25,375 bases of DNA. It comes from a virus. The notes beneath the pieces are model-generated. The model made no database searches. It saw only the letters and a list, made by a program, of their open reading frames with translations, and was not told the origin of the DNA. The position numbers were made by a program, and so were the translations under genes. Of the stretch, positions 1,325 through 25,375 are shown piece after piece. The stretch's first letter is position 1. Every line of letters starts with the position of its first letter. The stretch spans positions 1 to 25,375 of IMG/VR virus record IMGVR_UViG_3300035698_013214; one strand, given 5' to 3'.

Positions 1325-4300
1325 TAGAGAAGCTTTAAAAATAGATATGCGACTCCAACTTGCAGGGGGCAAAAACGTTACCAAAACAATCGTTGGTGGC
1401 GTTAAGGATATTGAAAGAGAAATTCAGCGATTGGGTCGCAGCCTTGATGTAGTGGAACGAAAAGCTGGGAAAGCACTGAAGACCCGCCTTGCAACATATG
1501 AACAAGCGACCGCTGGAAGTAGAGCAAAGGGGGCTCCTGCAACAAGAGGTAGACAGGCGAATATCAGAATAGGTCAGAAGGGAGGGAAAGTAGTTTCTGG
1601 ATTAAAACAAGTTCCTGCTGCTTCCGCTGGTGCTGCTGGCACTTCTAGTGTGATGAAGATGCGAGGGATTCAGCTTGCAGGGCTTAGAGAGGCCCAGGAA
1701 AAGGCAGTCCGGACAGTAAGTAAAACAATTAAGTCAGCCGGTAGGGAGACTGCTAATTCTGTTAAAATGATTAATGCAGAAACAGATAAGTCTTACAAAA
1801 AGATACAAGCAACCATTAAGGGTATAGTTACACAAGGGTTGAAAAAAGGTAGATCTCAAGCAGGAATATCTGGTTCTATAAAAAGAGCTCGTGACAAATT
1901 TGAGAAAAAGGAAAAGAAACAGTTTAGGGAAAGGCTTGAAGGTGCAAAGCGAGTCAATCAAACAGAAAGAAAAACGATACAGAAAACAATAGCTCAACAG
2001 GGTCGTGTTAAAAGGTTGAAAGCAAGAGAGTTTAGAAAAATACGTAACATGCACCGAGACAGTTTACGCAAAATAGATGAGTTAAAGCAGGGTGCAACTT
2101 GGGGAAAAGCCAAAAAGAAGATAAAGAATGTAGGTAAAGAACTAACATTCGAATTTGAGAAGATGGAGAAAAATCTCGAAAGAGGCATTAGAGAAATAAA
2201 AATTGAGCCAGGAGAAACAATTGAAACAGCTTTACAAAGAGTCTTTGACGATGTAGGTGATGAACTTAAAAGAATAAGTGTACCGCGTGTTAAACGTGCT
2301 GAACATTTACAACAACAGCAACCTTTCCACAAGGCATTTGCACAACAGGCTAAGGGCGCATTAGGGTTTGGTGCCATCGAGATAGGCCAGCGACTTTTAC
2401 AGGTCTTTAATGGTAAAAGGCTGAGAGGGCAGTTGAGTCAAAGCGTGTCTGGTTTGACAGGGGCCATAGGCGATATGTTCGGAGGGTTGGTAGGACAAGT
2501 CACTAGGGACATTGGTGAAGCTGCTGGTGGATTGGCTGAAATTTTCATAAATAGGCTTACACTTGATCTGCGTAGATTAGGCTTAGGGCTTGGAAGTTTT
2601 GTTAAAGCACTTGGTTTCACAATTGCAAGTGGAATTTTTACTGGGATGAAAGGTGTCATGGCAGGCTTTAGCTGGAAAGCATTGGGGATTCAGGGGCTTT
2701 CTGTAGCACTTCTTGGTAGTTTATTTTCAGTAATGAATATCGTTCAAGAAAGCATAGAAGAAATGCTTAGTAACCTGCAAGTTGCCTTTGAAGCTTTGAC
2801 CGCTATCGCTAGAGCGTCTTTGAATGTAATGGTTGGAGTGGTGAAAGCGGCAGGGAAAATAATTTCAGAAGTGTGGAAAGGGTTGTGGATGACCATGAAG
2901 AATGTGGTTAAAGCAAGCTGGCAGACAATGAAGGGATTGACACAAGCTGGATTGTTGTTTATTAAGGCATCGTTTAAAGCGTATTCAGAGTTACAGTTTA
3001 AAGCAAGGCAAGCTGCAACAGAGTTAGTAGATATTGCAAGAGATGCCACAGGACAAATGCAGGGTATCATGCTCAAGCTTGGTAGGGATTGGGGTGTGGG
3101 ATTAGAATCTGCGTTTAGATCCGTATTCTCAGTGGTGTCGTCCGGTTTCAGAAGTGTAAAAGAAGCAGAAATGATAACAAAGTCAGCAGCAAGGTTAGCG
3201 CTGGCCGCAGAGGGTGATATAGCTACTGCTACAAATGTATTGATTACAGCTTATCAAAACTGGGGTAAAGCGGCAGGTGGTGTGTTGAGTATGGAAAGAC
3301 AAATTTCTGCGGCGACAACTTTAAGTGTGGCAAACCTTTCTGAATTTGGGCCTGCGTTGAAAAGTGTTGCAGGTATGGCAAGTAGATTAGGCGTATCCTT
3401 CAAAGAAACTATGTTGAGTCTAGGCATGATGACAAGAGTATTTGGTAGAGGGTCTGCTCAACCTGCCGCTAGATTTCTTAACAGAATGTTGGAAGCAATG
3501 GCGATGCCTACCGGAAAAGCAAGAAAAGAATTAGAAAGTTTAGGTGTAACATTCGATGATACAAATTCAAGTATGAAAAATTTAACTTTTAGTGTCTTTA
3601 ATACTATTAAAGCGATGAAGGACATACCATTGGTGAATTTAAGACAGTTCTTCCCAACAGTGCAATCAAGAAAAGGGTTCCTGGCTTTGACAAAAGATAT
3701 GTCACAGTTTTCAAAAATGTTCAAGGAGCATGGTGCTATTGTTGCAAAGTATCCACGGCAAGTGGCAATGATGCAGAATACAATTAAAATACAATTTGCA
3801 AGAATTAGTAAATCTTTTGAAAGTGTGTTTGCTTTCGCCGGTGAACGTTTGAATAACTTTTTTTCAAAGGACCTGTCTAAATTCACAAAGATGTTTGTAG
3901 CCTTTATAAGGAACCTGCATAAAAACAAAGCTATAGTGAAGGTGTTTGAATTTTTGGGAAAACAGCTCAAGCCGGTTATGGATCAAATATTTACGCCTAT
4001 CTTTGACGCTATGGGCGAGGTTTTTAATATTTCGAAGATGAGCCCAAAAGACATAGTGGACACTGTCTTTGGTGGCACTGAAAAGATAAAAGGCTTCGCG
4101 GAAGATCTGGAAAGTATTGTAAAAAAGATAAAAGGATTGCCAGAAAAATTAGCAGGATTTAAAATTTCTTTAGGGCTGATTAACGAAAAATTGCTTAAAC
4201 CAATGGGGGAATTGGTGAGTAGTGTTGGAGAAAAGTTTAAAGATATAAAAATAGAAGATGTTGTAGAAAAAATCAATGTGTTGATAGCTAATTTGGCAGA

Positions 4301-6599
4301 TTTTCCAAACATGATAGCAAATATTGGGGGAGCTTTTAAGAAAGCTTTTGGCATTGATACGTTGGAAGATTTTAAGAAAAGCTTTAAATATTATGCAAGC
4401 AGTATGGGTAAAATCTTTTTGGATGTATTTTTAACCATTTTCACAAAGCTGACTGAGAGCTTGAAAAATATGCTTGGGACGGCTCTTGAAGCGGCCAAAA
4501 AAGATCCGCGAATGGCAGAATTTATTTATGTGCTCCAAAACGCTTTTACAGAAATACCTAAATTGATTATGAAATCTTTGATGAAAGGAATGACGAAATA
4601 TCTGGGGTTGGCAGGTATTATAACACACTTTGCTGGTGAAAGGGAAGAAAAAGAAAAAACAAAAAAATATCGTGATAGGATTATGGCAAGTGCTGATGCT
4701 CCAGAAAAAGCGCGTATGAAAGCTGATGAAGCAAGCGATCCGGAAAAGTTTTGGAAGTTGATGAAAATACGTGCAGGGTTAGAAACAGGTGTAGCTGGAC
4801 AGCTGATGAAAATCAATGAGAACTTATTAGATACCCTCGGCAATACTGTGGAAAGTTTCAAACCATCCACCGAACAGATTAAAAAAGATGCTGCTGAATT
4901 TTCAAATGCATTGAAAGAATTGGCGTTCAAGACAAAAACAGTAGCTAGTGAAATTCTCACACCAACTGAAAAAGCCCGTAGGAGTATCGATGCGGCAGCA
5001 ATAGATAGCAATATGGAAAAACCTTCTACAGAAAAAACTTTTAGACAAGTTTTAGGCTTTAAAGACCCTGCGTCTGTAGCGCAGGAAAAAATTAGAAAGT
5101 TTAAAACTGGTGGGATGGTGAACACTGGTTCTACCGTAAAAGATACTGTACCCGCTATGTTGAGTAAAGGCGAATATGTTTGGGACAAAAAGACTGTAGA
5201 TAAAAATAGATGGGCTATTAGTGCTATGCATAAAGGAGTTAAAGGCTATGAAACTGGTAGAATGGTGAACACTAGTTCTACCGTAAAAGATACTGTACCT
5301 GCAATGCAGGAAAAAATTAGAAAGTTTAAAACTGGTAGAATGGTGAACACTGGTTCTACCGTAAAAGATACTGTACCTGCAATGCAGGAAAAAATTAGAA
5401 AGTTTAAAACTGGTGGAATGGTGAACACTGGTTCTACCGTAAAAGATACTGTACCCGCTATGTTGAGTAAAGGCGAATATGTTTGGGACAAAAAGACTGT
5501 AGATAAAAATAGATGGGCCATTAGTGCTATGCATAAAGGAGTACAGAAATTTAAGACTGGTGGAATAGTGAACACTGGTTCCACTGTAAAAGACACTGTA
5601 CCTGCAATGCAGAAAAAGGTTAGAGCTTCTGGCGATGGTGGATCAGATGGGACCGATTCTAGTGAAAGAAATAGAACAAGAAGATTCTTGCCTCCGGATT
5701 TTCATGGAATCATGGAGCTTTTAGACAAACAGAGAAAGGAAGTCGAATATCGGAAATCCAATATCGAACGAATGGAAAGAATACAAAGAAATAAGATGGT
5801 AGGCAGACGGAGAAAGGAAGTCGAATATCGGAAATCCAATATCGAACGAATGGAAAGAATGCAAAGAAATAAGATGGTAGGCAAAAATATTGGTGTTAGT
5901 GTGGGAAAAACTGTCGACGCACCACCTGCAATGCAGAAAAAGGTTAAAAAGTTCGAAAATACTGGTTCGGAGTTACCCAAATATCGCGAAGAACGTGAGA
6001 AAATAGATAAGTGGAAAGCAGAACAGTGGAGTAAAATGAGCGGGTTGAGAAAAGGTAAAGAAAACAGAATAAGAAAATTGATGGATGATTATGAACTTGA
6101 TTATGAACTTGAGATAATGAAGGCTAAAAATCAAGGATCCACACCTAAAGCAGTTGAAAAGGTGAAAGATAAAATAAAAACTATTTATAAAGAAAAAGTG
6201 GAAAAACTGGATGTTTTATATAAAGAAAGAACGTCCGGGTTAAAGAAAAAGGTACAAAAGGAATATAAAGTTAAAAAGTCAAGATTTAGAAAAGAATTTG
6301 GTTTCAATTATGGAAAGTCCGGAGCAGGAGCACAGGCTACCACACCCATCGAAAATCAAATGATGCCAAGTCACGAAGCTATCCCAGGGACGGAAAGGAC
6401 AGCACCAACTACGACTTCAGGACAAAGTACAAATACGAGTATGATCCAAAGTGATGGCATGTCTAGAAAACAGCTAGCTTCCAGAAGTGAACTCATTACA
6501 GCCATGAGTGATTTAACAAATGCAGTGAAGGGGACAAAGGTGTTTACTCCACGTACAGAAACACTAGATCCTGAAAAAGCGGATATTGATGCAGCATGA
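1317..6599 (+). CDS. Tail tape measure protein, TP901-like core
   Basis: 1760-aa tape-measure protein that sets tail length and is ejected during DNA delivery. Residues 1-340 are very basic and helical. Residues about 420-475 form a Gly/hydrophobic stretch with membrane-like segments. Residues about 577-800 match the TP901-type core, with the typical pattern around the AEMITKSA, ATNVLITAY and LGVSFKETML segments. Residues about 1256-1436 contain repeated copies of a KTGGMVNTG...DTVPAML..GEYVW unit, recalling the TVPAML..GEFV motif common in tape-measure C termini. Residues about 1472-1523 carry a 26-residue tandem repeat, followed by a Lys/Glu coiled-coil-like end. At about 0.15 nm per residue the tail would be very roughly 260 nm (inference). 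The start has a good Shine-Dalgarno-like AGTAGGA at 1304-1310 and overlaps the previous gene by 8 nt. Confidence 0.93.
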   Translation: MANREALKIDMRLQLAGGKNVTKTIVGGVKDIEREIQRLGRSLDVVERKAGKALKTRLATYEQATAGSRAKGAPATRGRQANIRIGQKGGKVVSGLKQVPAASAGAAGTSSVMKMRGIQLAGLREAQEKAVRTVSKTIKSAGRETANSVKMINAETDKSYKKIQATIKGIVTQGLKKGRSQAGISGSIKRARDKFEKKEKKQFRERLEGAKRVNQTERKTIQKTIAQQGRVKRLKAREFRKIRNMHRDSLRKIDELKQGATWGKAKKKIKNVGKELTFEFEKMEKNLERGIREIKIEPGETIETALQRVFDDVGDELKRISVPRVKRAEHLQQQQPFHKAFAQQAKGALGFGAIEIGQRLLQVFNGKRLRGQLSQSVSGLTGAIGDMFGGLVGQVTRDIGEAAGGLAEIFINRLTLDLRRLGLGLGSFVKALGFTIASGIFTGMKGVMAGFSWKALGIQGLSVALLGSLFSVMNIVQESIEEMLSNLQVAFEALTAIARASLNVMVGVVKAAGKIISEVWKGLWMTMKNVVKASWQTMKGLTQAGLLFIKASFKAYSELQFKARQAATELVDIARDATGQMQGIMLKLGRDWGVGLESAFRSVFSVVSSGFRSVKEAEMITKSAARLALAAEGDIATATNVLITAYQNWGKAAGGVLSMERQISAATTLSVANLSEFGPALKSVAGMASRLGVSFKETMLSLGMMTRVFGRGSAQPAARFLNRMLEAMAMPTGKARKELESLGVTFDDTNSSMKNLTFSVFNTIKAMKDIPLVNLRQFFPTVQSRKGFLALTKDMSQFSKMFKEHGAIVAKYPRQVAMMQNTIKIQFARISKSFESVFAFAGERLNNFFSKDLSKFTKMFVAFIRNLHKNKAIVKVFEFLGKQLKPVMDQIFTPIFDAMGEVFNISKMSPKDIVDTVFGGTEKIKGFAEDLESIVKKIKGLPEKLAGFKISLGLINEKLLKPMGELVSSVGEKFKDIKIEDVVEKINVLIANLADFPNMIANIGGAFKKAFGIDTLEDFKKSFKYYASSMGKIFLDVFLTIFTKLTESLKNMLGTALEAAKKDPRMAEFIYVLQNAFTEIPKLIMKSLMKGMTKYLGLAGIITHFAGEREEKEKTKKYRDRIMASADAPEKARMKADEASDPEKFWKLMKIRAGLETGVAGQLMKINENLLDTLGNTVESFKPSTEQIKKDAAEFSNALKELAFKTKTVASEILTPTEKARRSIDAAAIDSNMEKPSTEKTFRQVLGFKDPASVAQEKIRKFKTGGMVNTGSTVKDTVPAMLSKGEYVWDKKTVDKNRWAISAMHKGVKGYETGRMVNTSSTVKDTVPAMQEKIRKFKTGRMVNTGSTVKDTVPAMQEKIRKFKTGGMVNTGSTVKDTVPAMLSKGEYVWDKKTVDKNRWAISAMHKGVQKFKTGGIVNTGSTVKDTVPAMQKKVRASGDGGSDGTDSSERNRTRRFLPPDFHGIMELLDKQRKEVEYRKSNIERMERIQRNKMVGRRRKEVEYRKSNIERMERMQRNKMVGKNIGVSVGKTVDAPPAMQKKVKKFENTGSELPKYREEREKIDKWKAEQWSKMSGLRKGKENRIRKLMDDYELDYELEIMKAKNQGSTPKAVEKVKDKIKTIYKEKVEKLDVLYKERTSGLKKKVQKEYKVKKSRFRKEFGFNYGKSGAGAQATTPIENQMMPSHEAIPGTERTAPTTTSGQSTNTSMIQSDGMSRKQLASRSELITAMSDLTNAVKGTKVFTPRTETLDPEKADIDAA
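5081..5612 (+). repeat. Tandem long/short repeats inside the tape-measure gene
   Basis: Two nearly identical 159-bp (53-aa) full units lie at 5081-5239 and 5384-5542. Truncated units lie at 5240-5305, 5306-5383 (78 bp) and about 5543-5612. All share the segment coding MVNTGSTVKDTVPAM or close variants; only the full units continue into LSKGEYVWDKKTVDK. The full copies differ at only a few bases, which indicates recent duplication. A decayed sixth copy, PPAMQKKVKKFENTG, appears around 5920-5970. Reading frame is preserved throughout, so the repeats act at protein level. Confidence 0.9.
5732..5884 (+). repeat. Second 78-bp tandem repeat in the tape-measure gene
   Basis: Two adjacent 78-bp units (5732-5809 and 5810 to about 5884) encode a 26-residue charged helix with core RKEVEYRKSNIERMER. 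Across most of their length they differ by a single base, with divergence only at the junction. The unit length equals the 78-bp period of the neighbouring short motif repeats, although the sequences are unrelated. Confidence 0.9.
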
Positions 6600-7385: not shown

Positions 7386-9050
7386 ATGTCAAGCTCATCA
7401 TCTAGTTCAGTTGAAACCAAAAGCTCCAGTAGCTTCAGTTCTTCTAGTAGTAGCCTTAGCTCTTCCAGGAGTTCTAGTAGTTCTATAAAGGCACAAAGCT
7501 CTAGTAGTTCATCCAGTTCTGGTGATAGTTCGTCTAGTTCAAGTCGACACAGTTCTAGTAGTCAAAGCAGCAGTAGCAGTTCCTTGATAAGTTATACTAG
7601 TTCTAGTAGTAGTAGTTCTTCAAGCACTAGCAGTGTGAAACAGAATCCATCCAGTAGCAGTTCCAGCAGTAGTTCTGTCGAAACTAAGAGTTCTAGCTCT
7701 TCCAATAGTAGCAGTTCTAGTTCAGTAGTGACTAAAAGTTCTAGCAGTTCTAGTTTATCGTCTAGTTCAGTGGCCACAAAAAGTTCCAGTTCTTCAATTG
7801 AAACCAAAAGTTCCAGTTCTTCAATTGAAACCAAAAGTTCCAGTTCCAGTTCAGTGGAAACTAAGAGTTCTTCTAGTTCCAGTTCATCATCCAGCTCTAG
7901 CAACAGCAGTTCAAGTTCATCGTCTAGTTCTAGTAATAGTAGTTCCAGTTCAGTGGCTACTAAAAGTTCTAGTTCCTCAGTAGCTACAAAGAGTTCCAGT
8001 TCCAGCTCTATTGAAACTAAAAGTTCAAGCTCTAGTTCTAGTTCTGAGATATCTTCTGCATTCAAGCTTATATATCCACGATATGTTGCCCTTACACAGG
8101 ATGAAAAAGTGGGTGGTTCAGTTTCGCCTTACGATGTTGAAATACCGTTGACATCTCAAGGTGATGTATTTTATCCGGGATTGATACCGGATACAGCAGT
8201 GGGATATTATCAATATCAAAAAGTATTTATAGAGGTGTCAGATAGTGCAGTTACTAATGTAAAAGTGTACGGGTATAACAGCAAAGCCAATGACGTTGTC
8301 CATTTTGCGATAGAAAAGAATTGGGACGGTTTAACAGTGGACGGAACAGAGGTTGTTAAAAACTTTGAAATAGAACCTAAAACTTATGGATCGTATGAAT
8401 GGCAAGATTTAGATAGCGCTCACGCTATATCATATGGGTCTATATTGGCAGGTGAACGATTAGGGGTGTGGTTAAGAATGGGAGTTACCAACACAGATAC
8501 CTACGATGCAGACGATGCCTTTGTCCTGGGGGTGAAATGGGATCAGGGTGGCACGAGCTATGAGCTTACAAAAGAAATAGAGCACACAAGAGTTTTACAG
8601 GACTGTACAATAGCCAAATTAGAAACAGTGAGTAGGGCGGAAAGAATAGTAGGTGTTTATATAGATGACCCAGTAACATCAACATTTTATGCAGATGAAG
8701 AAGATCAGTGGAAAGCTGTTTATATAAATGGAGAATTCTATGATGAGTTTAGTGGACTTTACACAGAAATACAAGTACCATCATTGAATCATCATTATGA
8801 TTTAGAAGTTTATTATTTACCGTTCTATGGATATAGATATAGTGACATTTTCCAAATGCCAGGAAATAGGGCAAGGTTACAATTTAAGGTGAAAAATCCA
8901 GAAGTGTATGATATGGAAAAGATACAAATTTTTACAGATAATAAAACTGGCACATATCAAACAAGACCAATGTGTGTGATAAATGCAAAAACAGCAGACG
9001 GTGGTGGAATGTTAGTACATCGTGTAATAGTAGAAACAGAAGGACTATAA
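7386..9050 (+). CDS. Tail protein with ~220-residue poly-serine N terminus
   Basis: 554-aa protein. Residues 1-220 are roughly three quarters Ser, broken at intervals by VETK, VATK, IETK and similar four-residue spacers. Residues 221-554 are a normal, acidic, aromatic-rich beta domain with no recognised family. The Ser tract uses all kinds of Ser codons (AGT, AGC, TCT, TCC, TCA) mixed together, so it is kept at protein level and is not a simple DNA repeat expansion, although one 27-bp unit is tandemly duplicated at 7779-7832. The start lies 1 nt after the previous stop (TAATATG) with no Shine-Dalgarno sequence, suggesting coupling. Its place among tail-tip genes suggests an exposed tail or baseplate protein with a flexible Ser-rich arm; glycosylation or surface adhesion are possible roles but unproven. 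Confidence 0.8.
   Translation: MSSSSSSSVETKSSSSFSSSSSSLSSSRSSSSSIKAQSSSSSSSSGDSSSSSSRHSSSSQSSSSSSLISYTSSSSSSSSSTSSVKQNPSSSSSSSSSVETKSSSSSNSSSSSSVVTKSSSSSSLSSSSVATKSSSSSIETKSSSSSIETKSSSSSSVETKSSSSSSSSSSSSNSSSSSSSSSSNSSSSSVATKSSSSSVATKSSSSSSIETKSSSSSSSSEISSAFKLIYPRYVALTQDEKVGGSVSPYDVEIPLTSQGDVFYPGLIPDTAVGYYQYQKVFIEVSDSAVTNVKVYGYNSKANDVVHFAIEKNWDGLTVDGTEVVKNFEIEPKTYGSYEWQDLDSAHAISYGSILAGERLGVWLRMGVTNTDTYDADDAFVLGVKWDQGGTSYELTKEIEHTRVLQDCTIAKLETVSRAERIVGVYIDDPVTSTFYADEEDQWKAVYINGEFYDEFSGLYTEIQVPSLNHHYDLEVYYLPFYGYRYSDIFQMPGNRARLQFKVKNPEVYDMEKIQIFTDNKTGTYQTRPMCVINAKTADGGGMLVHRVIVETEGL
7779..7832 (+). repeat. 27-bp tandem duplication in the poly-Ser coding region
   Basis: Two perfect adjacent copies of a 27-bp unit (7779-7805 and 7806-7832) encode the nine-residue unit KSSSSSIET. 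This is the one place in the Ser tract where an exact DNA-level tandem copy is obvious; elsewhere the codons have drifted. Confidence 0.85.
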
Positions 9051-9061
9051 GGAGAAGTAAA

Positions 9062-9262
9062 GTGAGTGTATTGCAAGCAGAAATTTATACAAATAAAATT
9101 GGAGAATGGAGATTCAGAGTTAGAGATGCTGATGGTAAAGCGCTGTGTGCGTCTAGCACAAGTTATGTAAGAAGAAGAGCTTGTATACGTGCATTGAAAA
9201 GTGTTGCGCGTTCTTCAGAGAAAATTGATATTGTGGATCTGAATCGGGCCGATACTGAATAG
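9062..9262 (+). CDS. DUF1508 / YegP-like small protein
   Basis: 66-aa protein starting at GTG 9062. That start is chosen because AAGGAG (9049-9054) lies 7 nt upstream; the longer open frame from 8972 would overlap the previous gene by 79 nt. The pattern EIYTNKIGEWRFRVRDADGK followed by a Ser-rich turn, a Tyr, a basic stretch and an ALKSVAR helix matches the single-copy DUF1508 (YegP/UPF0339) unit, in which a short beta sheet is followed by a helix. The family is widespread in bacteria and poorly understood; its role in a phage tail region is unknown. The gene ends 4 nt before the convergent minus-strand gene. Confidence 0.75.
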   Translation: MSVLQAEIYTNKIGEWRFRVRDADGKALCASSTSYVRRRACIRALKSVARSSEKIDIVDLNRADTE

Positions 9263-9266
9263 GTAG

Positions 9267-10388
9267 TTATTTATTCGCACTTTTGTAACTTGGAGTGGGG
9301 CAGTCAACTTCATAAACGGGTTGTACTTGCCCCTTATGATTCCATTTTGTGATGACTTGTTGAGTTGGCCGTAAAGCCTTGTCTTCATAAGCCATGTTGG
9401 TAAACTCTGGACAAAATGACTTGTCCTTTTCAACAACTTCCGTAATGATAGAATTAATATCAGAAGCAGATTTATCTGTAAAGAAACCTGTGTATCTAGA
9501 AGTGTATGTCGGAAAGATGCGTGTAGGGGAAAGGTACCAAGGGAGCCATTGTCCATAAAGATCGTAATGTAAAGCATCACAGTCCACACCAACAGATTCA
9601 ATGGAGAATGTACGTTTTTGTGGGTTTGAACAAAGAATCTCACCATCAACTGGGTGATTAATCGTGCAGTCTTTTGGTCTGCATCCTTCGCAATTGCCAC
9701 ATAAAACATTGTAACCTATTTTGTGATTGGTTCTTATATCTTTAGTTATCCTAGAAAGGTAATTGTCTGTTAATCTGTCTGGATACATAAGAAACATTAA
9801 TGTAGCACTTGTGTAAGAATAACGGCGATCTTTCCAAACGTTTTTGAATACCCACTTATAATCCATAGAAAGAACTAAAAGATAAAAATTTTTGTTTGAA
9901 GGTTTTAGTTGTGTAAAATGTGGGCTGTAGGTGGGACAACCTCCACCGGATCCTTTACAATTACCGCAAGAAAAGAATCTTTGGTAATCGGACATCAGTG
10001 GGATATCCGTTCTATTAAAGTAGAAACATTCAAGGTAAAGTGAAAGAGTGCTACCACTAGCAGTTTGATAAGGTATGTGACGAGAAAAAACTTTATTTGG
10101 ATGGGAAGATGGAATTGGAAAATTTATTTCACTGGAAACTGGGACATCTAAAACAGGTGGGCGTTCGAGAGGTTCATCGGGCGTAGGGTGTGAAAAACAA
10201 TATAAATGCCTTATTAAATAACCTTTATCAGTTTGTTTTGGAACATCTTCAAAGTAGTTATGGTAAAGCTTTAATAGGGTGGCTTCATTCAGATATTTAA
10301 GCTCTTCTAAGTCGTGAATATTAATTGAGTTCACCTTAGAATGTGTTTTTGGAACGATAATTGTTTTGAAGTCTGTGTGATGGTACAT
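9267..10388 (-). CDS. DUF2284-like predicted metal-binding protein, minus strand
   Basis: 373-aa protein, the only clear minus-strand gene in the window, interrupting the tail module. Its start has AAAGGTGA (complement of 10392-10399) and a TATAAT just upstream. The first ~135 residues are unrecognised. Then come two Cys clusters. The first, CGNCKGSGGGCPTYSPHF, is followed by a mixed alpha/beta segment. The second, LCGNCEGCRPKDC, leads to a segment with the order C..P.KR..S.E..GVD. This arrangement resembles DUF2284 proteins, where C...C..CPPY.P is followed by C..C.....C..P.KA..SMEA.GIDV, presumed to bind a metal or Fe-S cluster. The last ~90 residues are unrecognised. The family match is by eye and from memory. 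Isolation on the opposite strand with its own signals is typical of a phage moron gene. Confidence 0.75.
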   Translation of the reverse strand: MYHHTDFKTIIVPKTHSKVNSINIHDLEELKYLNEATLLKLYHNYFEDVPKQTDKGYLIRHLYCFSHPTPDEPLERPPVLDVPVSSEINFPIPSSHPNKVFSRHIPYQTASGSTLSLYLECFYFNRTDIPLMSDYQRFFSCGNCKGSGGGCPTYSPHFTQLKPSNKNFYLLVLSMDYKWVFKNVWKDRRYSYTSATLMFLMYPDRLTDNYLSRITKDIRTNHKIGYNVLCGNCEGCRPKDCTINHPVDGEILCSNPQKRTFSIESVGVDCDALHYDLYGQWLPWYLSPTRIFPTYTSRYTGFFTDKSASDINSIITEVVEKDKSFCPEFTNMAYEDKALRPTQQVITKWNHKGQVQPVYEVDCPTPSYKSANK

Positions 10389-16280: not shown

Positions 16281-16304
16281 AATAACTAGTAAGCAAAGGT
16301 GTGT

Positions 16305-18152
16305 ATGAAAAAAGTAGAAATAGATTTAAAGTTAGTTGGTGGAGGTTGGATTGAAGTCGGGATACAACACCCTTCCAGTGACACTTTTAGAGAAACTTTA
16401 GAAGTCTTAAAATATTATTTGCCTGTCTTTAGGTACAATAGTAAGACAAGGAAATATGATACTTCCATTTACCATGTTCAAAAGGTTTTGGATCTGGTTG
16501 AAAAATATAATTGGGAACTATATGCTTCCGATAAGTTTCAAAAATATGTAAGGCTTGTGGAAAGAAAAAAGGCAAAGATAGCCGAAGTTAAACACGATGA
16601 CGAATTTACCACACCTTTGTGGACAGATGACCAAAATGCACAGTTATACCCTTCACAGAAAAAAGCAATAAATTTTGGTCTCCTCAATGGAGGTGGTTTG
16701 ATTATCGATGAAATGGGGGTAGGAAAGACTCTTGAAGCCATTGGCGTAATGTGTAAATTGTTTGAAGAAAAAATGGGGAATGCATTATTCGTAGTCAAAA
16801 ACAGTTTGAAAGATCAGTGGCTAAGCGAAATTCTGAGGTTCACAAAAATAGAAAAGAATAACATATCAATCATAGGTGGTAGACAATGTTATAGATGTCC
16901 CAAGGGCATAGTGGAAGATGGGGCAGTAAACTTTGTACGGAATGGTGGGTGTAAGGAATGTGAAAATGCTATACATTGTAGAAAAGTACTGCGAACAGAA
17001 GCTCTCACGCGCATATACCAAATATCAATAGCAAACATAAATATTTGTTCCTATGAACAGTTGCGTATAAATATTGGTTCGTTTAAAAAGAAACAATATG
17101 ATATAATAGTTTTTGATGAAGCTTCGAAGCTAAAAAATAGAGGCTCCCTTACAAGTAAGTCAGCAGTACAATTATGTCAGGAACATTCAGAAGCTGTAAA
17201 AGTTTTGATGTCTGGCACGTTTATAGAGAATAAGCTTGAAGAATTATATACCCCCATGGCAATATTTAATGGAGCGGTTTTGGGAACATTCGGTAATTTT
17301 GCACAACACTATCTTGTGCGAGATCACTTTAATGTTACGGTGGGTTACAGGAACTTGAAGTACTTTAAAAAGATAATAAGACCGTTTATGATTAGACGCA
17401 CCCTCGATAAAGTTTGGAAAGAAAGACCGTCTTTAACAGAACTTAACAGATATTGTGCCATGACCAAAAAGCAAGCAGAATTATACCAGCAAGCTAAAGA
17501 AGGTGTTTTAAAGGATTTAGCAGATTTAAAATTAGAAAAGAAAATTAACTTTGCGAATGTGCTGTCATTAATACAGTATTTAATACAGGTGGCATGTACT
17601 GGGAAAGTTCTAGTAGACGAGGATAGTGGAAATGATTCATGTTCAACTAAAATAGATGAATTGAAAAGTATACTATCTGAAGAAGTTGGCGAAGGAAAGC
17701 AAGTTATAGTTTTTTGTAGTTATCCGTATAAAGTGTCACCGTATATTGAAGCAGCATTGAAAAAAGACGGGCACAAAGTCTGTGTAGTGGATGGAAAGAA
17801 CAGTAAACACATTAATGAAAGAATAGGAAAATTTAAGGCTGGGGAATACAATGTGTTGCTTTGCTCAGATGTGGTCGCCTATGGGATGAATTTACAATGT
17901 GCTACATATTTAATCAATTTCAATTTACCTTGGAATCCTGCAATGATAGATCAAAGGATAGGTAGGGTCTATAGAAGAGGGCAGACAAATCCAGTTGTGG
18001 TCATAAATCTTGTAACAAAGAACACGATAGATGAAGATATCATGGATAAGATTTTTGCCAAAAGAAAGCTTTTTGATGAAGTGCTGGGATATGGTAAAAT
18101 GCGTAAGATGAAGAAACCGAATGTTGGCAAATTGGTGGAGCTTTTAGGATAA
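16305..18152 (+). CDS. SNF2/superfamily 2 helicase with inserted Cys cluster
   Basis: 615-aa SF2 DNA translocase of the SNF2 type. ATG 16305 is chosen because AAAGG (16295-16299) is well spaced from it; GTG 16299, two codons earlier, would sit on that site. Visible motifs are a Q-motif-like YPSQKKAINFGL, motif I DEMGVGKT (135-142), motif II DEAS (271-274), motif III-like LMSGTF, motif V-like AYGMNL and motif VI DQRIGRVYRRGQ (549-560). Between motifs Ia and II lies an insert with C195, C198, C216, C219 and C225, probably a zinc ribbon. Residues 1-115 are a small extra domain, HARP/SMARCAL-like at best. Likely role: remodelling DNA, fork or bound proteins during phage replication. The next gene starts on its stop (TAATG). 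Confidence 0.9.
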   Translation: MKKVEIDLKLVGGGWIEVGIQHPSSDTFRETLEVLKYYLPVFRYNSKTRKYDTSIYHVQKVLDLVEKYNWELYASDKFQKYVRLVERKKAKIAEVKHDDEFTTPLWTDDQNAQLYPSQKKAINFGLLNGGGLIIDEMGVGKTLEAIGVMCKLFEEKMGNALFVVKNSLKDQWLSEILRFTKIEKNNISIIGGRQCYRCPKGIVEDGAVNFVRNGGCKECENAIHCRKVLRTEALTRIYQISIANINICSYEQLRINIGSFKKKQYDIIVFDEASKLKNRGSLTSKSAVQLCQEHSEAVKVLMSGTFIENKLEELYTPMAIFNGAVLGTFGNFAQHYLVRDHFNVTVGYRNLKYFKKIIRPFMIRRTLDKVWKERPSLTELNRYCAMTKKQAELYQQAKEGVLKDLADLKLEKKINFANVLSLIQYLIQVACTGKVLVDEDSGNDSCSTKIDELKSILSEEVGEGKQVIVFCSYPYKVSPYIEAALKKDGHKVCVVDGKNSKHINERIGKFKAGEYNVLLCSDVVAYGMNLQCATYLINFNLPWNPAMIDQRIGRVYRRGQTNPVVVINLVTKNTIDEDIMDKIFAKRKLFDEVLGYGKMRKMKKPNVGKLVELLG

Positions 18153-18991
18153 TGGATTTTTATAAATATTTAATAGAACAGGCTACAAACTGCGATTTAA
18201 GGCGGGTAATCGGACAGTTGATGGAAGAACTCTGTGTGAAAGAAGAAGACGTTTTAGTAAAAAATAAAAGAACTAAGAAAAAACTACGAAAGAATTTAAA
18301 GGGTAAGATTATCCAAATTTGGAAAAAGGATAGTGGATATTTCTACACTTTTTCAAAGACATCAATAGGAAAATTTGTTGGGGATTGTGTTGGATGCCCC
18401 TTTTCCAGAAAAATAAGAAAAAATAAAAATGGTAAAGTGTTGAAGTATAGAAAGTGTGTCTCAGAAGTTTCATGTGTACATGATTTGCCCAGAAGGATAC
18501 ATGGGTTAATAAAATTGATGGAGTTTGAAGGGTATGTAAGGTGTGTGACAAAAGAAGAAGCCGAAAGGGAAGTTAAAACTTTTTACCCCGATAATATTAA
18601 AGACTGGAAAGTCACAGACTTTGTAAGATACTATGGTGATCTAATGAAGGAGCATTGTCCGCATTTGGTTATAAATAGTGGGTATAGGATTAAAAAACAA
18701 CTCGGCGAGTTTATACGTATAATGCGGGGGCAAGCTGGTGATCACGAAGGGAACGCAAGAGTTAAGAAATATTTACGTGTGAAATTTGAAAGAACAGATA
18801 ACGGCACTGAAATCTATTTAAATGCCCTTTTTAAATCTTCTAGTTATGCGTTGAATATGTACTTTCCTGATTTTTGTAAGAGGGAAGAAATATATTGTTC
18901 GTATTGTTTGCAAGGGGAATGCTGCTTAGAAAAGGAAAATGGTCAATGTACAATAGGCTTAATAAAAAAGATGGGAAAGAAATATAATTAA
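18152..18991 (+). CDS. Cys-rich replication-operon protein of unknown function
   Basis: 279-aa basic protein, not recognised. It has two Cys clusters. The first is CVGC (C79, C82), C102 and C108, set in a Lys/Arg-rich segment. The second is C242, C249, C252, C257, C258 and C266 near the C terminus. The spacing could suit zinc or an Fe-S cluster. The N-terminal ~30 residues are helical. It is coupled to the SNF2-like gene by TAATG and precedes the replicative helicase gene by 3 nt. A DNA-binding, loader, primase-like or nuclease role is imaginable from context only; no catalytic motif was identified. Confidence 0.8.
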   Translation: MDFYKYLIEQATNCDLRRVIGQLMEELCVKEEDVLVKNKRTKKKLRKNLKGKIIQIWKKDSGYFYTFSKTSIGKFVGDCVGCPFSRKIRKNKNGKVLKYRKCVSEVSCVHDLPRRIHGLIKLMEFEGYVRCVTKEEAEREVKTFYPDNIKDWKVTDFVRYYGDLMKEHCPHLVINSGYRIKKQLGEFIRIMRGQAGDHEGNARVKKYLRVKFERTDNGTEIYLNALFKSSSYALNMYFPDFCKREEIYCSYCLQGECCLEKENGQCTIGLIKKMGKKYN

Positions 18992-18994: not shown

Positions 18995-20386
18995 ATGCCT
19001 TTAACACGCACAGAAAGAATAAGACACAGGAATGCAGATTATCGAGATATTAATCTTGAAATTGCTTTTGTAGGTGGAATTGTAGGTTCTGTTGAAGCAC
19101 TTGGCAAGGTGATGGATGATTTTCCTAGCGATGCACTTACAAGTAACAGACTCAAGAATATGTACGATATTGCGATAAAGCTGTATCACGAAGCCGGTGA
19201 ACCATTAACACTTGATTCTTTGGAAAATATGCTGAACGTTTCAGCGTTTAAGAAAGAAGCTTATAAACGGCTTTATAGAAGATGTAAGAAGATAGGTAAA
19301 AAGAGAACAGTTACTGATACATTTGTTGCACAAAAGAAATTACAGCAAATGTATTATGGTCGGCACATTGAATTGTGCATGAAGGGCATCTTAGTAGACC
19401 TCCAAAGTGGGTTGGATGGAAAGCTGGACAAAGTAGACGAAGCCGCTGAAAAAATACAAAGCCTGTCTGTAGACATTACAGACAGGCAGGTGGCAACAGT
19501 TATAGTTGATCCTGTGGTAGGGTATGCGGATTGGAAAAAAAATTACATACATATCCAGAAACATCCAGAATTGTTGAGAAGTATCCCAACAGGTATCCCA
19601 CCCATGGATAGATGTATGCAGGGCATAAGGGGACAGGAATTTGGGCTTATAGCTACACCTTCAAGTGTGGGTAAATCAATCGCATTAATGAACATTGCTA
19701 CTTATTGTTGGAGGACTGTTGGTGATGTAGCATTGATCACAATAGAAATGCCAGCAGAACAATATCAAAACAGACTATATTGTTCATGGTCTGCTATAGA
19801 ATATGAAAAGTTTAGGTGTTACTCTTTAGGTAAAAAAGAATGGAAAGGATTAGATAAGACAATAAAACGATACAAGGCACACGAACACAAGATACATTTA
19901 GTAGACATGCCAGAAAACTGTACGGTGGATGCAATAAGAGCAGAAATACAATCACTGCAAAAGAAGTACGATATTAAGTTGGTGGTTTTAGATTACCTGA
20001 ATATTGTTAGGGACAGTACTGGTGAATTTTCTGTAGGTTGGGAATCACAGTTGCAGACAGCGTTAGAAGCTAAGATGAAGATTTGTCGTGGACTGAGACT
20101 GCCAATGTGGTCAGCAGTCCAGGTAAGTGCAAAGGATCTTGCTTTTTCAACTCATATTAAAGATCAAATTGACATTGGGGTTAAGTTTTTACCCACTGAT
20201 GATTATGAAGACACGAAGATGTTAAAAATGACATGGTTTAAAACTAGAGACTTTGAAGGTGTCCCATCTGTTATTTATACTGACCGCGGCAAGATGAAAC
20301 TGTACAAAAATGTTAGTGTAGAAGAAAAACGTAGAAGAAAAAAATTAAAGAAAATTTCAAAATCTGAAAGAAAGGTTAAAACATGA
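18995..20386 (+). CDS. DnaB-type replicative DNA helicase
   Basis: 463-aa RecA-fold hexameric helicase. The N-terminal ~155 residues are a helical domain. From about residue 190, SIPTGIPPMDRCMQGIRGQE matches the DnaB entry to the RecA fold, then Walker A ATPSSVGKS (K227), ITIEMPAEQ (DnaB motif H1a/H2 region, E after I), Walker B LVVLDYLNIV (D333), SAVQVSAKD (H3/H4), and KTRDFEGVP near the C terminus (the arginine-finger loop). The last 20 residues are strongly basic (KRRRKKLKK), unusual for DnaB. No primase domain is fused. The ATG has only a weak ribosome binding site and follows the previous stop by 3 nt. An 11-bp inverted repeat lies at codons 156-164, between the two domains. Confidence 0.9.
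   Translation: MPLTRTERIRHRNADYRDINLEIAFVGGIVGSVEALGKVMDDFPSDALTSNRLKNMYDIAIKLYHEAGEPLTLDSLENMLNVSAFKKEAYKRLYRRCKKIGKKRTVTDTFVAQKKLQQMYYGRHIELCMKGILVDLQSGLDGKLDKVDEAAEKIQSLSVDITDRQVATVIVDPVVGYADWKKNYIHIQKHPELLRSIPTGIPPMDRCMQGIRGQEFGLIATPSSVGKSIALMNIATYCWRTVGDVALITIEMPAEQYQNRLYCSWSAIEYEKFRCYSLGKKEWKGLDKTIKRYKAHEHKIHLVDMPENCTVDAIRAEIQSLQKKYDIKLVVLDYLNIVRDSTGEFSVGWESQLQTALEAKMKICRGLRLPMWSAVQVSAKDLAFSTHIKDQIDIGVKFLPTDDYEDTKMLKMTWFKTRDFEGVPSVIYTDRGKMKLYKNVSVEEKRRRKKLKKISKSERKVKT
19461..19487 (+). repeat. Perfect 11-bp inverted repeat (hairpin) inside dnaB-like gene
   Basis: GCCTGTCTGTA (19461-19471) and TACAGACAGGC (19477-19487) pair perfectly with a 5-nt loop (GACAT). There is no T run after it, so it does not look like a terminator. 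It lies in the region coding the linker between the N-terminal and RecA domains. Confidence 0.9.
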
Positions 20387-21411
20387 AAGAAATTCCCGTG
20401 ATTCATAAAGAATGTTACATCGCCAGAGCCGAAGTAGAAAATGAAACTTCTAATGTTGGTTTTAGGATAGCGAACTTGATTCATATTCTTGGTGGGGATA
20501 ATAAGTTAAATAAACTTAGTTATTATTCAAACCATGTTGAAGAAAAAAGTGATGATGGCAAGGCACTTAGGGGCAGTTACGGCCCTAGACTAAGATGGTG
20601 GGTTGGCAGCGATCAACTTGCGGAAGCAAATAAAATAAATGTTAATATGGATGATGAAAAGGACATGGTGAAACCTGTAGGTGTCGATCAACTGTTAATG
20701 GCTTATATGGATTTGATACCTGAAGATCAACAGGGATTAGGACTTTCACATTCTTCTTTTGTTGTTAGAAATCCGGCTATAGATTTTGACGAAACAAATG
20801 ATGTACCAGATCTGTTAAGTGGAACTTTTTATATAGATAATTATAGGCTTCACCTTATTCTGAATTATGAAATAATCGAAAATGTGTTTAATGACTTATG
20901 GGCTTTTAGTCAAATCTTGTCGATGATGGCTGTTTGGATTCATGCTGTGCCAGGAAGTCTGATTGTGAATGGGGTGATAGATAATTCAGGTAAATATGAA
21001 ACGTTTGAAACAATAGATAGGTGTTGCCAGCAGGATAGAAATGTGATGGGGTTTGACACAGAAGCAAAGGAATTTTGGGAAGATATGGATACGCTTAATT
21101 ATTTAGAGGGGCATATACGTTGTATCTTCAATAAGGAAGTCCTTATAAATGAAGACGTTGATTATGAAAGTTGTATTGAAATGTTTATGCGCACATCTGA
21201 AGAAAGATTTTTTGGTAATTACCCCAAAGAGCTTTTGTTTGCTTTGCTCATCTGGGCATTGGCTAATAAGTGTGATATGTACGGTGAACAGCATATAATT
21301 CACATGTTGGGACAGATGGAAACGTCGATTAAAGGTGAAGTCATTCACATGCTAAAACAAAGAAGCTGTGGTTTGGACTTGTCCGATTATTTGGAGAACT
21401 GGAGTGGCTAA
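20383..21411 (+). CDS. Thymidylate-synthase-fold protein lacking catalytic residues
   Basis: 342-aa protein, coupled to the helicase gene by ATGA with GAAAGG upstream. It follows the phage dUMP/dCMP hydroxymethylase-thymidylate synthase pattern. NLIHILGG...LSYYSNHVEE SDDG (56-59), then GSYGPRLRWW (64-73) and a DQLL segment match S DDG...GAYG.R....DQL. Later VPDLLSGTFYID and the LILNY...N...AFSQILSMMAVWIHAVPGSL helix match the core of the family. But the catalytic Cys position after Pro142 is Asp143, the P.SRR phosphate-binding element is PEDQQ, and the RS.D element is NYEIIEN. It is therefore probably not a working synthase. The C-terminal ~130 residues are less like the family. Its place between helicase and HU/polymerase genes suggests a structural or binding role in replication (inference). 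Confidence 0.75.
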   Translation: MKEIPVIHKECYIARAEVENETSNVGFRIANLIHILGGDNKLNKLSYYSNHVEEKSDDGKALRGSYGPRLRWWVGSDQLAEANKINVNMDDEKDMVKPVGVDQLLMAYMDLIPEDQQGLGLSHSSFVVRNPAIDFDETNDVPDLLSGTFYIDNYRLHLILNYEIIENVFNDLWAFSQILSMMAVWIHAVPGSLIVNGVIDNSGKYETFETIDRCCQQDRNVMGFDTEAKEFWEDMDTLNYLEGHIRCIFNKEVLINEDVDYESCIEMFMRTSEERFFGNYPKELLFALLIWALANKCDMYGEQHIIHMLGQMETSIKGEVIHMLKQRSCGLDLSDYLENWSG

Positions 21412-21784
21412 AAAATACTATGATTGGAAGGGTTCAAAAAACACAGATGAAGAATTCATCAGTCACCTTGCAAGGGAGTTGGATGTCGGAAGGGATCGTG
21501 CAAAAGAAGTGATAAAGGTGTTTGTCAATAGTGTTAGGTACTGTACAAATCTTAACACGTTTCTTTCGGTGAGACGTCTAGGGGTGTTCGCGATACGGGA
21601 AAGAAAAAATAGTAAATATTTAGACCAAAGTACCGGAGTTTATAAAAGACTGCCGTTGATGAACACAATACACTTTAAACCTTCAGTGAGTTGGCGTGGT
21701 GAGATTAATTTGAAGATAAAAGAAGCCATCAAGAAAACCTTAGATGAAGCAGAAGAACACAAACGGGACATGATAAGATTGTGA
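21404..21784 (+). CDS. HU/IHF-family DNA-binding protein
   Basis: 126-aa protein. GTG 21404 is chosen because GGAG (21393-21396) is 7 nt upstream and the start overlaps the previous stop by 8 nt; the longer frame to ATG 21368 has no such site and would overlap the neighbour by 44 nt. Residues from about 10 follow the HU pattern: FISHLARELDVG, an EVIKVFVNSV helix, FLSVRRLGVFAIRERKNS (the G.F.VR turn), the arm region and IHFKPSVSWRGEIN. It probably bends or organises phage DNA at replication or packaging. The polymerase gene follows with GTGA overlap. Confidence 0.85.
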   Translation: MAKKYYDWKGSKNTDEEFISHLARELDVGRDRAKEVIKVFVNSVRYCTNLNTFLSVRRLGVFAIRERKNSKYLDQSTGVYKRLPLMNTIHFKPSVSWRGEINLKIKEAIKKTLDEAEEHKRDMIRL

Positions 21785-24700
21785 AAAAGAAAATAGTTTG
21801 GAATAGATTACACTGTCATAGCGATTTTAGTGTGAGAGACGCGATTGCAAAGGTGAGCAAACTCGTTGAAAATGCTAAAGAACAGGGGTGTACAGCACTT
21901 GCCTTAACAGATCATGGGAATCTTAGTGGTTCATATCAACTGTGGAAAGATTGCAGGAAAGCGGAAATAAAACCAATTTTAGGTGTGGAAGCATATTACG
22001 TAGATGATTATGAATCTGAATCTGCGAAGGTTGCTTGGAACTATATGCACATTTGTCTATGGGCCGCTAACGCTAAAGGGTGGCAGAATATAAAAGACAT
22101 GATGGAAGTCGCGTGGAACAGAGGTTTTCATGCAAAGCCTCGTATCGATTTTGCACTGTTGAAGAAACACAATGAAGGGGTGTTTGTTGGATCTGCTTGT
22201 GTAGGTGGGCTGGTAGGTCATACTTTGCTTGGTTATGATAAATATCATACCGATCTTACAAAAGTGGAAAAGAATAAAAGAATATGTAAACGTATAAAAC
22301 AAATCCAAAAGGTTTTTGGTGATAGATTCTATCTGGAATACATGATACACGATATGAAAGAGCTTGTTGCTCTTAATAAATACCAAATAAGGCTTGGAAA
22401 AAAGTTTGGCATCCAAGGGATTCTCACACACGACACACATTATATAGCGGATAATGATTATGAAATACATGATATAGTGCTATGTGTTATGCGGAATACA
22501 AAACTACAGGACGAAAACAACGGAACGTATGATTGTAAGGATTTCTCCTTCAGTAGTGTAAAAAAAGTTCAAGAATGTAGAAAAGAACATTTCCCTTATA
22601 TCAAGAAAAAAACTGTGGAAAAGTGGATGAAAAACACGGTTAAGTTCAGCAATAGGATAGAAACCTTTGAGTACAGGACAAAAGAGAGTGCTTTACCTAA
22701 ATACTGTGAAGACGCCAATGCTGTTTTGAGAAAGCTGTGCAAGAAAGGGATGAAGGACAGAATAAAAAGTGTCACTAAAGAATATAAAGCAAAATTAGAA
22801 TATGAATTGGAAGTTATCATTAGGCTTGGGTTTTCAGATTACTTCTTATTTGTGTGGGACATTGCACAGTACTGTAAAGCTACCGGTATACCGTATAATG
22901 CCCGTGGGAGTGTTTGTGGCTCGTTGGTGGCCTTTTGCTTGGGGCTTACAGTAGTAGACCCAATAAGGTTTGATGCTACGTTTGAGAGATTTTTAACAGA
23001 GGACAGATTGTCCCTGCCAGATATAGATGCAGATGTTGGAAAAAAACAACGTCAACTGGTGGTAGATTACATTCAAGAAAAATACGGTTCTGACAATGTA
23101 GCTTACATATTGAACTTTTTACAGTGGCGTCCACGTGGAGCACTGAAGGATGTGAGCAGAGTATGTGGTGTACCTTTCCAAACTATAAATGACATCACAA
23201 AAGCTATTCCAGACAATGTTAGAGAATGGGGAGAAATTCCAGCAACTAAAAAGTTGACCAGATTTTTTGAAAAAAATGAAGACATTGAAGACTGGTCGAT
23301 ACGAATGCAAAAGTTTTACAGACAGCGTGGAACACATGCTTCTGGTATAATAGTCACACCTGGAAAAATGACAAAGTGGATTCCGGTGTCGTACAATACA
23401 ACAGGCGACAAAAGAACAAATAAAACAACTGAATTGAATATGTACGATCTTGAAGAACTAGACATACTCAAAGTTGATATATTGGGACAAACAACTCTAG
23501 ATGTAATAATGGACACGTTAAGGTATGAACAAGTTCCTTGGAATAATTATGACGAGATTGCTATGCACGTACTTGAAGAAGAAAACATAAACGATAAAGA
23601 AGTGTATGCAGGATTACGTGCAGGACACTTGCAGGGTTTGTTTCAACTTGGCACATCTGAGGGGATGAAAAATTTGACAATAGCAATGGGAACTGAAAAC
23701 ATAGAAGATATTCTATATGTGATATCTTTGTACAGGACAGGTGTGTTGAAGGCTGGGATGCATACAGAATTTGTGGAAAGGAAATTTGGTAAAGAATTTG
23801 AATACATACATCCTAAAATGGGTAAGGTACTTGATAAAACAAAGGGTGTGTTATTATTTCAAGAAGACCTATCGGCATTGGCTGTGCATTTAGCAGGGTT
23901 TACACCAACGGATGCGGATCATTTTAGGAAAGGCATCAAACTAAAAGATCCGAGTAAATTTAAGCCTTGGAAAGACAAATTTATAAAGGGTTGTAAAAAA
24001 ATTAGCAACATTAAAAAAAGTGATGCAGCCAAAATATGGCAGTTTATGGAATACTTTAGTGGATATGGATTTAACAAAAATCATGGTTTGAGTTATGCGA
24101 TTGTGGCCTATATAACAGCATATTTGAAACACTATTATCCAGTAGAATTTATGTGCAGCTTGCTAACAAATAACATAGACGATGATAAAAAGCTGGCTAA
24201 GTATGTTAAAGAATGTAGAAGACTTGGCATTAAAGTTTTGATGCCTGAAATAAATGAATCAGGTGCTGAATTTAAATTATCTAAGAGTGGAAAAAATATT
24301 AGATTTCCTTTCAGTGCAGTGAAGGGTTGCGGGGACAAAGCAGTGCAATGTATTAAAGAAGTCAAAGCTAAAGGTAAAATAAAAAGCTTTGAGCAATTTT
24401 ATGAAGACGTGAATAAAACGAAGGTGAATGTCAAGGTTTTGTCGAATATGATTTTTGCAGGTATATTCAGTAAATTCGGAAGTATGAAAAAGGTTTATAA
24501 TAAATATGCAAAGTTGCGCAATGAAAAGAATGAGAGAACCCTCTATTGTTATAGTTGCAGTAACAGGTATCCCATTATATCAAATAAGTTGGTGTGTCCC
24601 AATTGTGGTGATTTAGATGTAACAGTGAAATCTAAAAAAGTCAGGAAGAAAAAATTTAATAAAGCTTATTTGGCGGATCTAGTGTTTGGATTTAATGTCA

Positions 24701-25041
24701 CTAGAAAAGGTTTAACGGACTTTGCACCCATTATACTAAAGGCAAAGTGTAAGCCCTTGTCAATAGTCGAAGAAATAAATACAGGTTCTTTAGTTAAAGT
24801 TGCATTTGAAGTTGATAAGATAAAAGAGATCGTAGACAAGAACGGTAACAAAATGGCTTTTATAGATATAGTTGATGGGGAATTTGATACAAGTATTGTA
24901 ATTTTCCATTCAGACTGGGATGTTTTAAAAGATGTTTTTAAGAAAGGAAGGTGCTACATTGGAAAGCTAGAAAAGGGTAATCGTGGTGATAACTATTTGT
25001 ATTCTTCAAGGAGAAGTAAATTGGATGAATTAAAACTTTAA
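21781..25041 (+). CDS. dnaE: DNA polymerase III alpha subunit (DnaE type) with C-terminal zinc ribbon
   Basis: 1086-aa C-family replicative DNA polymerase starting at GTG 21781 in a GTGA overlap. N-terminal PHP domain: HCHSD (11-15), LTDHGN, GVEAYY, MHICLW and THDTHY look intact in metal ligands, so a PHP exonuclease or pyrophosphatase is possible. Polymerase core: RGSVCGSLVAFCLGLT, FERFLTEDRLSLPDIDADVG with D414 and D416, and VDILGQ with D566 as the third catalytic Asp. Then NKNHGLSYAIVAYITAYLKHYYPVEF and a (HhH)2-like region around FSAVKGCGDKAV. At 923-942 CYSC...CPNC forms a zinc ribbon, followed by an OB-fold-like end (VKVAFEVDKIKEI...FIDIVDGE). No PolC-type exonuclease domain is inserted. 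It is similar in length to typical DnaE. Confidence 0.93.
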   Translation: MKKKIVWNRLHCHSDFSVRDAIAKVSKLVENAKEQGCTALALTDHGNLSGSYQLWKDCRKAEIKPILGVEAYYVDDYESESAKVAWNYMHICLWAANAKGWQNIKDMMEVAWNRGFHAKPRIDFALLKKHNEGVFVGSACVGGLVGHTLLGYDKYHTDLTKVEKNKRICKRIKQIQKVFGDRFYLEYMIHDMKELVALNKYQIRLGKKFGIQGILTHDTHYIADNDYEIHDIVLCVMRNTKLQDENNGTYDCKDFSFSSVKKVQECRKEHFPYIKKKTVEKWMKNTVKFSNRIETFEYRTKESALPKYCEDANAVLRKLCKKGMKDRIKSVTKEYKAKLEYELEVIIRLGFSDYFLFVWDIAQYCKATGIPYNARGSVCGSLVAFCLGLTVVDPIRFDATFERFLTEDRLSLPDIDADVGKKQRQLVVDYIQEKYGSDNVAYILNFLQWRPRGALKDVSRVCGVPFQTINDITKAIPDNVREWGEIPATKKLTRFFEKNEDIEDWSIRMQKFYRQRGTHASGIIVTPGKMTKWIPVSYNTTGDKRTNKTTELNMYDLEELDILKVDILGQTTLDVIMDTLRYEQVPWNNYDEIAMHVLEEENINDKEVYAGLRAGHLQGLFQLGTSEGMKNLTIAMGTENIEDILYVISLYRTGVLKAGMHTEFVERKFGKEFEYIHPKMGKVLDKTKGVLLFQEDLSALAVHLAGFTPTDADHFRKGIKLKDPSKFKPWKDKFIKGCKKISNIKKSDAAKIWQFMEYFSGYGFNKNHGLSYAIVAYITAYLKHYYPVEFMCSLLTNNIDDDKKLAKYVKECRRLGIKVLMPEINESGAEFKLSKSGKNIRFPFSAVKGCGDKAVQCIKEVKAKGKIKSFEQFYEDVNKTKVNVKVLSNMIFAGIFSKFGSMKKVYNKYAKLRNEKNERTLYCYSCSNRYPIISNKLVCPNCGDLDVTVKSKKVRKKKFNKAYLADLVFGFNVTRKGLTDFAPIILKAKCKPLSIVEEINTGSLVKVAFEVDKIKEIVDKNGNKMAFIDIVDGEFDTSIVIFHSDWDVLKDVFKKGRCYIGKLEKGNRGDNYLYSSRRSKLDELKL

Positions 25042-25137: not shown

Positions 25138-25375
25138 ATGGGTAAGAACAAAGAAAAGAAAGAAACAGTACAAATCTCTACAGCCTATGGCGTGGACTAC
25201 AGTACTAAAGCAACAGGTATCTCGAGTATTCAAGTAACGAGAGAATCTGAAGGCGACGTAGCGGAGTTGACACTGGCGCAGTCAGAAGAAATGGAAGAGA
25301 TCTGGAAGAAGCTTGAGGAAGCAGGGAAGACTATTACGTCTAAACTTGCTGACGACGATGACGATGACGATGACG
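25138..25375 (+). CDS. Small acidic protein with poly-Asp tail (5' part)
   Basis: Starts at ATG 25138 with an excellent ribosome binding site AAAGGAG at 25124-25130 (7-nt spacing). 79 codons are visible: a Lys-rich start (MGKNKEKKE), a mixed middle with an EEMEEIWKKLEEAGK helix, and then at least nine Asp in a row, encoded by mixed GAC/GAT codons, running off the window edge. No family is recognised. The acidic tail could mimic DNA or bind basic proteins, but this is speculation. Confidence 0.75.
   Translation, partial: MGKNKEKKETVQISTAYGVDYSTKATGISSIQVTRESEGDVAELTLAQSEEMEEIWKKLEEAGKTITSKLADDDDDDDD

Follow-up and report, generated by a model that had tools for sequence, protein, structure and literature searches.

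A probable conserved pseudoenzyme of the thymidylate synthase family in a phage replication operon

Few enzymes in biology are as conserved as thymidylate synthase (TS). A phage gene that keeps the scaffold of this family and lacks its chemistry, set between replication genes, raises the question of what its product is kept for. The gene lies at 20383-21411 (+ strand) of a whole IMG/VR virus record of 25,375 bases with a GC content of 38%, called the window here, in which a tail module (tape measure 1317-6599) precedes a + strand replication operon. A first-pass annotation had described its product as a catalytically dead protein with a kept fold in a replication operon; our analysis supports this description, and a second dead protein found in the same operon of another phage strengthens it. 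The tail module has features of its own. Its tape-measure gene contains an in-frame repeat block (5061-5640) of KFKTGGMVNTGSTVKDTVPAM units with a spacing of 78/147 nt, the 261-nt copies being 89% identical, and in the protein encoded at 7386-9050 the N-terminal half is a long run of poly-serine. Also within this module, a Cys-rich ORF of 373 aa on the - strand (9267-10388) shows weak similarity to DUF2284 predicted metal-binding proteins (E = 0.0026).

The operon comprises, all on the + strand, a SNF2-family helicase (16299-18152; PF00176, 7e-35), an uncharacterised protein (18152-18991), a DnaB-type replicative helicase (18995-20386; PF03796, 3e-23), the TS-like gene, an HU-like DNA-binding protein (21404-21784; PF00216, 1.4e-8) and a DnaE-type DNA polymerase III alpha (21781-25041; PF07733, 8e-72). 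The start of a further gene (25138-25374) runs off the contig. DnaE carries a CYSCSNRYPIISNKLVCPNC zinc-ribbon-like insert near its C-terminus (residues about 925-950). The TS-like gene and dnaB share an ATGA start/stop overlap (20383-20386, + strand), which suggests that their translation is coupled, and a GAAAGG Shine-Dalgarno-like site (20370-20375, + strand) can be read directly 7 nt 5' of the TS-like ATG. The GTG start of the HU-like gene overlaps the TS-like stop by 8 nt, and this gene in turn overlaps the start of DnaE (GTGA). The ORF list places the HU-like start at 21368, which is too far upstream; we prefer 21404 because it is preceded by GGAG.

The TS-like frame runs from ATG 20383 to TAA 21409-21411 and encodes 342 aa, an in-frame TAA at 20377-20379 ruling out a start upstream. 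The probability of an open frame of this length and composition arising by chance is about 3e-13. Coordinates, frame and scaffold motifs were found as first described: SDDG (residues 56-59), GSYGPRLRWW (64-73), DQL (77-79 and 102-104) and a long helix (169-185). Profile searches pointed to common descent with the TS/pyrimidine hydroxymethylase superfamily, with E = 1.4e-12 against PHROG 5131, a phage thymidylate synthase family (1.3e-14 for the second member). Values against SPO1-group enzymes were 3e-6 at best and 1e-4 for gp29, the SPO1 dUMP hydroxymethylase; phage G gp319 gave 1e-5, and MilA in the PDB gave 0.0023, or 4.7e-7 when a two-member profile was used. Pfam PF00303 did not match the window protein at E<=10 or the second member at E<=0.01. 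Judged by these profiles, the window protein is a true homologue of phage pyrimidine hydroxymethylases and thymidylate synthases. The kinship to T4 gp42 drawn in the first-pass annotation stands as to the shared TS fold; the nearest relatives, however, are phage G gp319, SPO1 gp29 and MilA rather than gp42.

To what extent has the active site been lost? Relatives were gathered by patterns that leave out the regions of the catalytic Cys, RS.D and His, and 172 of them were sampled; conserved positions are numbered as in E. coli TS. C146, R166, D169, G173, H207 and Y209 are invariant in 172/172 relatives, and 171 of these have E58. In the window protein, the position of C146 is occupied by Asp143 (codon 20809-20811, + strand) in every alignment, in agreement with the substitution reported earlier, and by Asp in the second member too. 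The catalytic Glu (E58) has become Asn31, D169 Glu, G173 Asn and H207 Gly203, while R126/R127, R166 and S167 are lost. The stretch between R71 and R130 contains no Arg, which rules out the R126/R127 phosphate pair under any alignment. In the alignments, residues 163-171 (20869-20895, + strand) form a different and shorter segment where active relatives have the R-S-x-D...G...N substrate loop, and the 161-171 region contains no RS.D. The disappearance of the phosphate-binding Arg and RS.D elements was thus correctly noted at first reading, and the losses of E58, G173 and His207 go beyond it. Taken together, Cys146, Glu58, Arg126/127, Arg166, Ser167, Asp169, Gly173 and His207, which mark an active TS or dUMP or dCMP hydroxymethylase, are all missing. 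Y94 and Y209 are kept; R21, whose column shifts between alignments, is omitted from our strong claims. The other Cys residues of the protein are C11, C214, C215, C247 and one near the C-terminus.

The loss is unevenly distributed. In 95 representatives, 29 columns reach a conservation of at least 85%. From what is known of E. coli TS, we take 12 of them to be catalytic or ligand positions; 10 of these 12 are lost in the window protein, and 14 of the 17 scaffold positions are kept (Fisher p = 0.0007). On this count of aligned residues, the chemistry is selectively lost, which is not a picture of general decay, and we conclude from the same residues that nucleotide binding, folate binding and catalysis would all be gone. 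The dUMP and dCMP hydroxymethylases of PHROG 5131 (SPO1 gp29, phage G gp319) have the SDDG...G.YGPR scaffold, the size and an insert before DQL in common with the window protein, in which their catalytic Cys and Glu, phosphate Arg residues, Asp169 and His207 have each been lost or replaced. T4 gp42, a dCMP hydroxymethylase with TS fold, displays the reverse pattern: it retains the Cys/Glu/Arg166/Asp169/His207 chemistry without the scaffold motifs kept in the window protein.

Structure prediction bears on whether the fold itself has survived. The AlphaFold2 model of the window protein (pLDDT 76, pTM 0.77) superposed on MilA with Z 23.4 and an rmsd of 3.3 over 264 residues, and that of the second member (pTM 0.84) with Z 29.2 and an rmsd of 2.8 over 295 residues. 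Both models are monomers built with active relatives in the alignment. Matches to many TS structures reached Z about 16 for the window model and about 16-19 for the two dead members. Both models thus have the TS alpha/beta fold on which the first reading depended, although the family's N-terminal helix is missing in the window protein. In both, the superposition on MilA takes in a C-terminal helical domain, which is absent from TS and T4 gp42 (PMC5175136), so that the TS fold together with a MilA-like C-terminal helical domain is predicted to be kept. MilA, a CMP 5-hydroxymethylase (PDB 5b6d, 5jp9) with the same fold including this extra domain, is an active enzyme with Cys155, Glu68, His216 and Tyr218 (PMC5175136); of these four, the window protein retains only the Tyr.

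The second dead member came from a scan of IMG/VR for SDD...G.YGPR.R, which is blind to catalytic residues and returned 43 contigs, each with a TS-like ORF. The Cys motif was present in 42 of them, the exception being IMGVR_UViG_3300031673_000038 (contig L209, genome G001; 61,786 bases). Its TS-like protein is 32-37% identical to that of the window over 309-324 residues (148 bits, E = 5e-45). Both contain NxxPDLxSxTF, with Asp in place of the Cys, and a DD..D.VKP.GVDQL insert, which in the window protein spans residues 85-104 (the KINVNMDDEKDMVKPVGVDQL region, 20635-20694, + strand; alignment A5). E58, R166, D169, G173, H207 and Y209 are lost in the G001 protein, and the residues in window and G001 are N/Y at E58, D169 E/Q, G173 N/E, H207 G/K and Y209 Y/G. 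Further scans added no third member: single-protein scans of IMG/VR with the TS-like protein or the polymerase found nothing, YGPRLRWW gave two chance matches, and scans with the two dead members or VKP.GVDQL returned only the known second member besides unrelated or active proteins. In Andromeda-like, Geobacillus and human-gut phages with a related DnaE, no TS-like gene was found at that place.

The dead gene of G001 (8975-10045) has the neighbours of its window counterpart, arranged alike: SNF2 helicase, uncharacterised protein, DnaB, dead TS, HU-like protein and DnaE. The ATGA overlap with dnaB recurs, and the gene after DnaE is homologous to the one cut off by the end of the window (37% over 62 aa, E = 2.6e-7). 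Identity between the phages amounts to 32-37% for the TS-like protein, 31-32% for DnaB and 38-40% for SNF2 helicase and DnaE (38% and 39% in the window features). The uncharacterised protein, placed between SNF2 helicase and DnaB in both phages, is conserved at 22-24% (E = 4e-10), and its G001 copy (L231:6646-7581) gives a weak hint of a replication-initiation O-like domain (phrog_678, E = 0.0066). The HU-like proteins share family and position, with pairwise similarity that is not significant; a relation of the HU-like protein to TF1 of SPO1 was rejected as there is no pairwise similarity. Elsewhere in G001 (L231:15741-17918), RecA is split by an intein with a LAGLIDADG endonuclease domain. 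Because the two phages differ no more in the TS-like protein than in DnaB, we consider this protein to be under selection and not a decaying relic. Within the dead pair, the SDDG...YGPR...DQL stretch and the following insert are most conserved (57-61% identity), and the strands and helix around the pocket least (20-25%), a comparison of sequences which suggests that a surface is now under constraint in place of the pocket. With catalytic residues lost and the gene maintained in the same operon of two phages, we are highly confident that this is a conserved pseudoenzyme, of which two members are at hand.

G001 also encodes an intact hydroxymethylase/TS with every catalytic residue present, at about 37.3-38.4 kb, 28 kb from the dead gene and next to a class II-type ribonucleotide reductase gene. 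The chemistry in G001 is therefore not dependent on the dead protein. The window record is a 25-kb fragment, and the paralogue comparison accordingly refers to G001. Where did the dead gene come from? Intact homologues abut or overlap the DnaE start in three contigs, L051, L152 and L025 (gaps of -11, +2 and +31 nt), each record having one TS-like match. In SPO1, the hydroxymethylase, gp30, the HU-type TF1 and the polymerase lie close together, a neighbourhood like that of the window protein; in T4, gp42 is near the polymerase and helicase genes (gp43 and gp41), as in the window, but gene order and polymerase family differ. The simplest history would be an ancestral working enzyme beside the polymerase that lost its chemistry later. 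The two dead proteins form a clade of their own (SH-aLRT 99) on a stem of 2.5 changes per site, against 1.2 and 1.4 for the tips; rapid change when the function was lost and renewed constraint thereafter would give such branch lengths. With weak support, the pair falls in a set with L051, L152 and phage G. The tree separates the dead protein from the active hydroxymethylase of G001; an AU test on a single clade, however, gave p = 0.31 and did not reject that the dead gene may stem from a duplication of that enzyme.

The intact relatives have peculiarities of their own. At L152:5996-9242, directly before DnaE, the hydroxymethylase is apparently fused to a C-terminal P-loop (GADGSGKTTL) domain and preceded by a carbamoyltransferase gene (PF02543/PF16861), an arrangement that suggests a carbamoylated-base pathway. 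Second, divergent TS-like genes occur near hydroxymethylase genes in Brevibacillus and Arthrobacter-group genomes (L177:5873-6904, L162:3762-4652 and L159:3730-4650), with Cys in other contexts (MPCST, FPCLVHIDIS) and RATH/RHWH replacing RSND.

What, then, might the dead protein do? A structural or regulatory role, as proposed at the outset, is a reasonable inference. The nucleotide-sensing role proposed alongside it is disfavoured, as both dead members lack the residues that contact phosphate, ribose and base. In our best explanation, which we give an even chance of being right in full, the gene product would be a pseudoenzyme descended from the phage pyrimidine hydroxymethylase/TS family, its ancestor having been a working hydroxymethylase sited beside the polymerase gene. 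It would be made from one operon with DnaB, the HU-like protein and DnaE, whose genes overlap and are probably translationally coupled. As a TS-fold dimer bound to the replication machinery it would act by protein contacts as a scaffold or adaptor, and in G001 the enzymatic job would be available from the separate intact hydroxymethylase. Several observations argue for such a scaffold: the dead protein occupies the same place in a six-gene order common to two divergent phages; the loss is confined to the active site, with the scaffold kept and conservation like that of DnaB; the Cys-to-Asp exchange and the insert are common to both members, which form a clade with a long stem and shorter tips; intact homologues sit directly before or overlapping DnaE in the three contigs; and each of the two models resembles MilA, its C-terminal domain included. 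T4 gp42, part of a complex of nucleotide-synthesis and replication proteins, provides a precedent. The enzymes of nucleotide synthesis in T4 are reported to be tightly joined with replication proteins in one complex (PMC6071114). A more specific version, suggested by the operon context, is tentative and in our view rather unlikely: the dead protein may serve the DnaB-DnaE replisome of a phage as a dedicated structural subunit that docks dNTP-synthesis enzymes, the active hydroxymethylase included, at the fork.

The dead subunit might instead pair with the active phage hydroxymethylase or with host ThyA and activate or inhibit it. In the TS family both subunits take part in forming the active sites (PMC5175136), G001 encodes a possible intact partner, and in trypanosomes the AdoMetDC prozyme is a dead paralogue acting as activator (PMC6221367). 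The prozyme and other pseudoenzyme partners resemble G001 in that a dead paralogue stands beside an intact enzyme in one genome, but the prozyme fold is unrelated and the pairing in phage hypothetical. Since the dead protein lacks the two Arg residues with which a subunit completes the active site of its partner, and its gene sits with replisome genes whereas the active enzyme adjoins the ribonucleotide reductase gene, we regard such a heterodimer as unlikely. Still less probable is a repurposed pocket that binds or converts another ligand via the conserved Asp143: the Asp and N..PDL.S.TF are identical in both members at an overall identity of 32-37%, but most other pocket residues differ between them and conservation is lowest in the strands and helix around the pocket. 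In other organisms, TS proteins bind their own mRNA, and the position of the gene between dnaB and the HU-like gene would suit a regulator of operon translation or a binder of replication DNA; no nucleic-acid-binding motif was identified in the dead protein, however, and we hold this to be improbable. A functionless, decaying relic of a former hydroxymethylase gene would fit the complete loss of the active site, but can hardly be reconciled with an intact overlapping ORF in two phages, an identity similar to that of DnaB and scaffold positions selectively kept.

A literature search limited to open-licence papers turned up no description of dead natural TS relatives. A physical tie of phage nucleotide enzymes to the replication fork has been argued for T4. 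On the scaffold or adaptor reading, a TS-fold protein that stays among replisome genes without its chemistry, and whose relative's genome encodes an intact enzyme at another place, would separate an architectural from a catalytic role, and this separation can be tested by pull-down and deletion.
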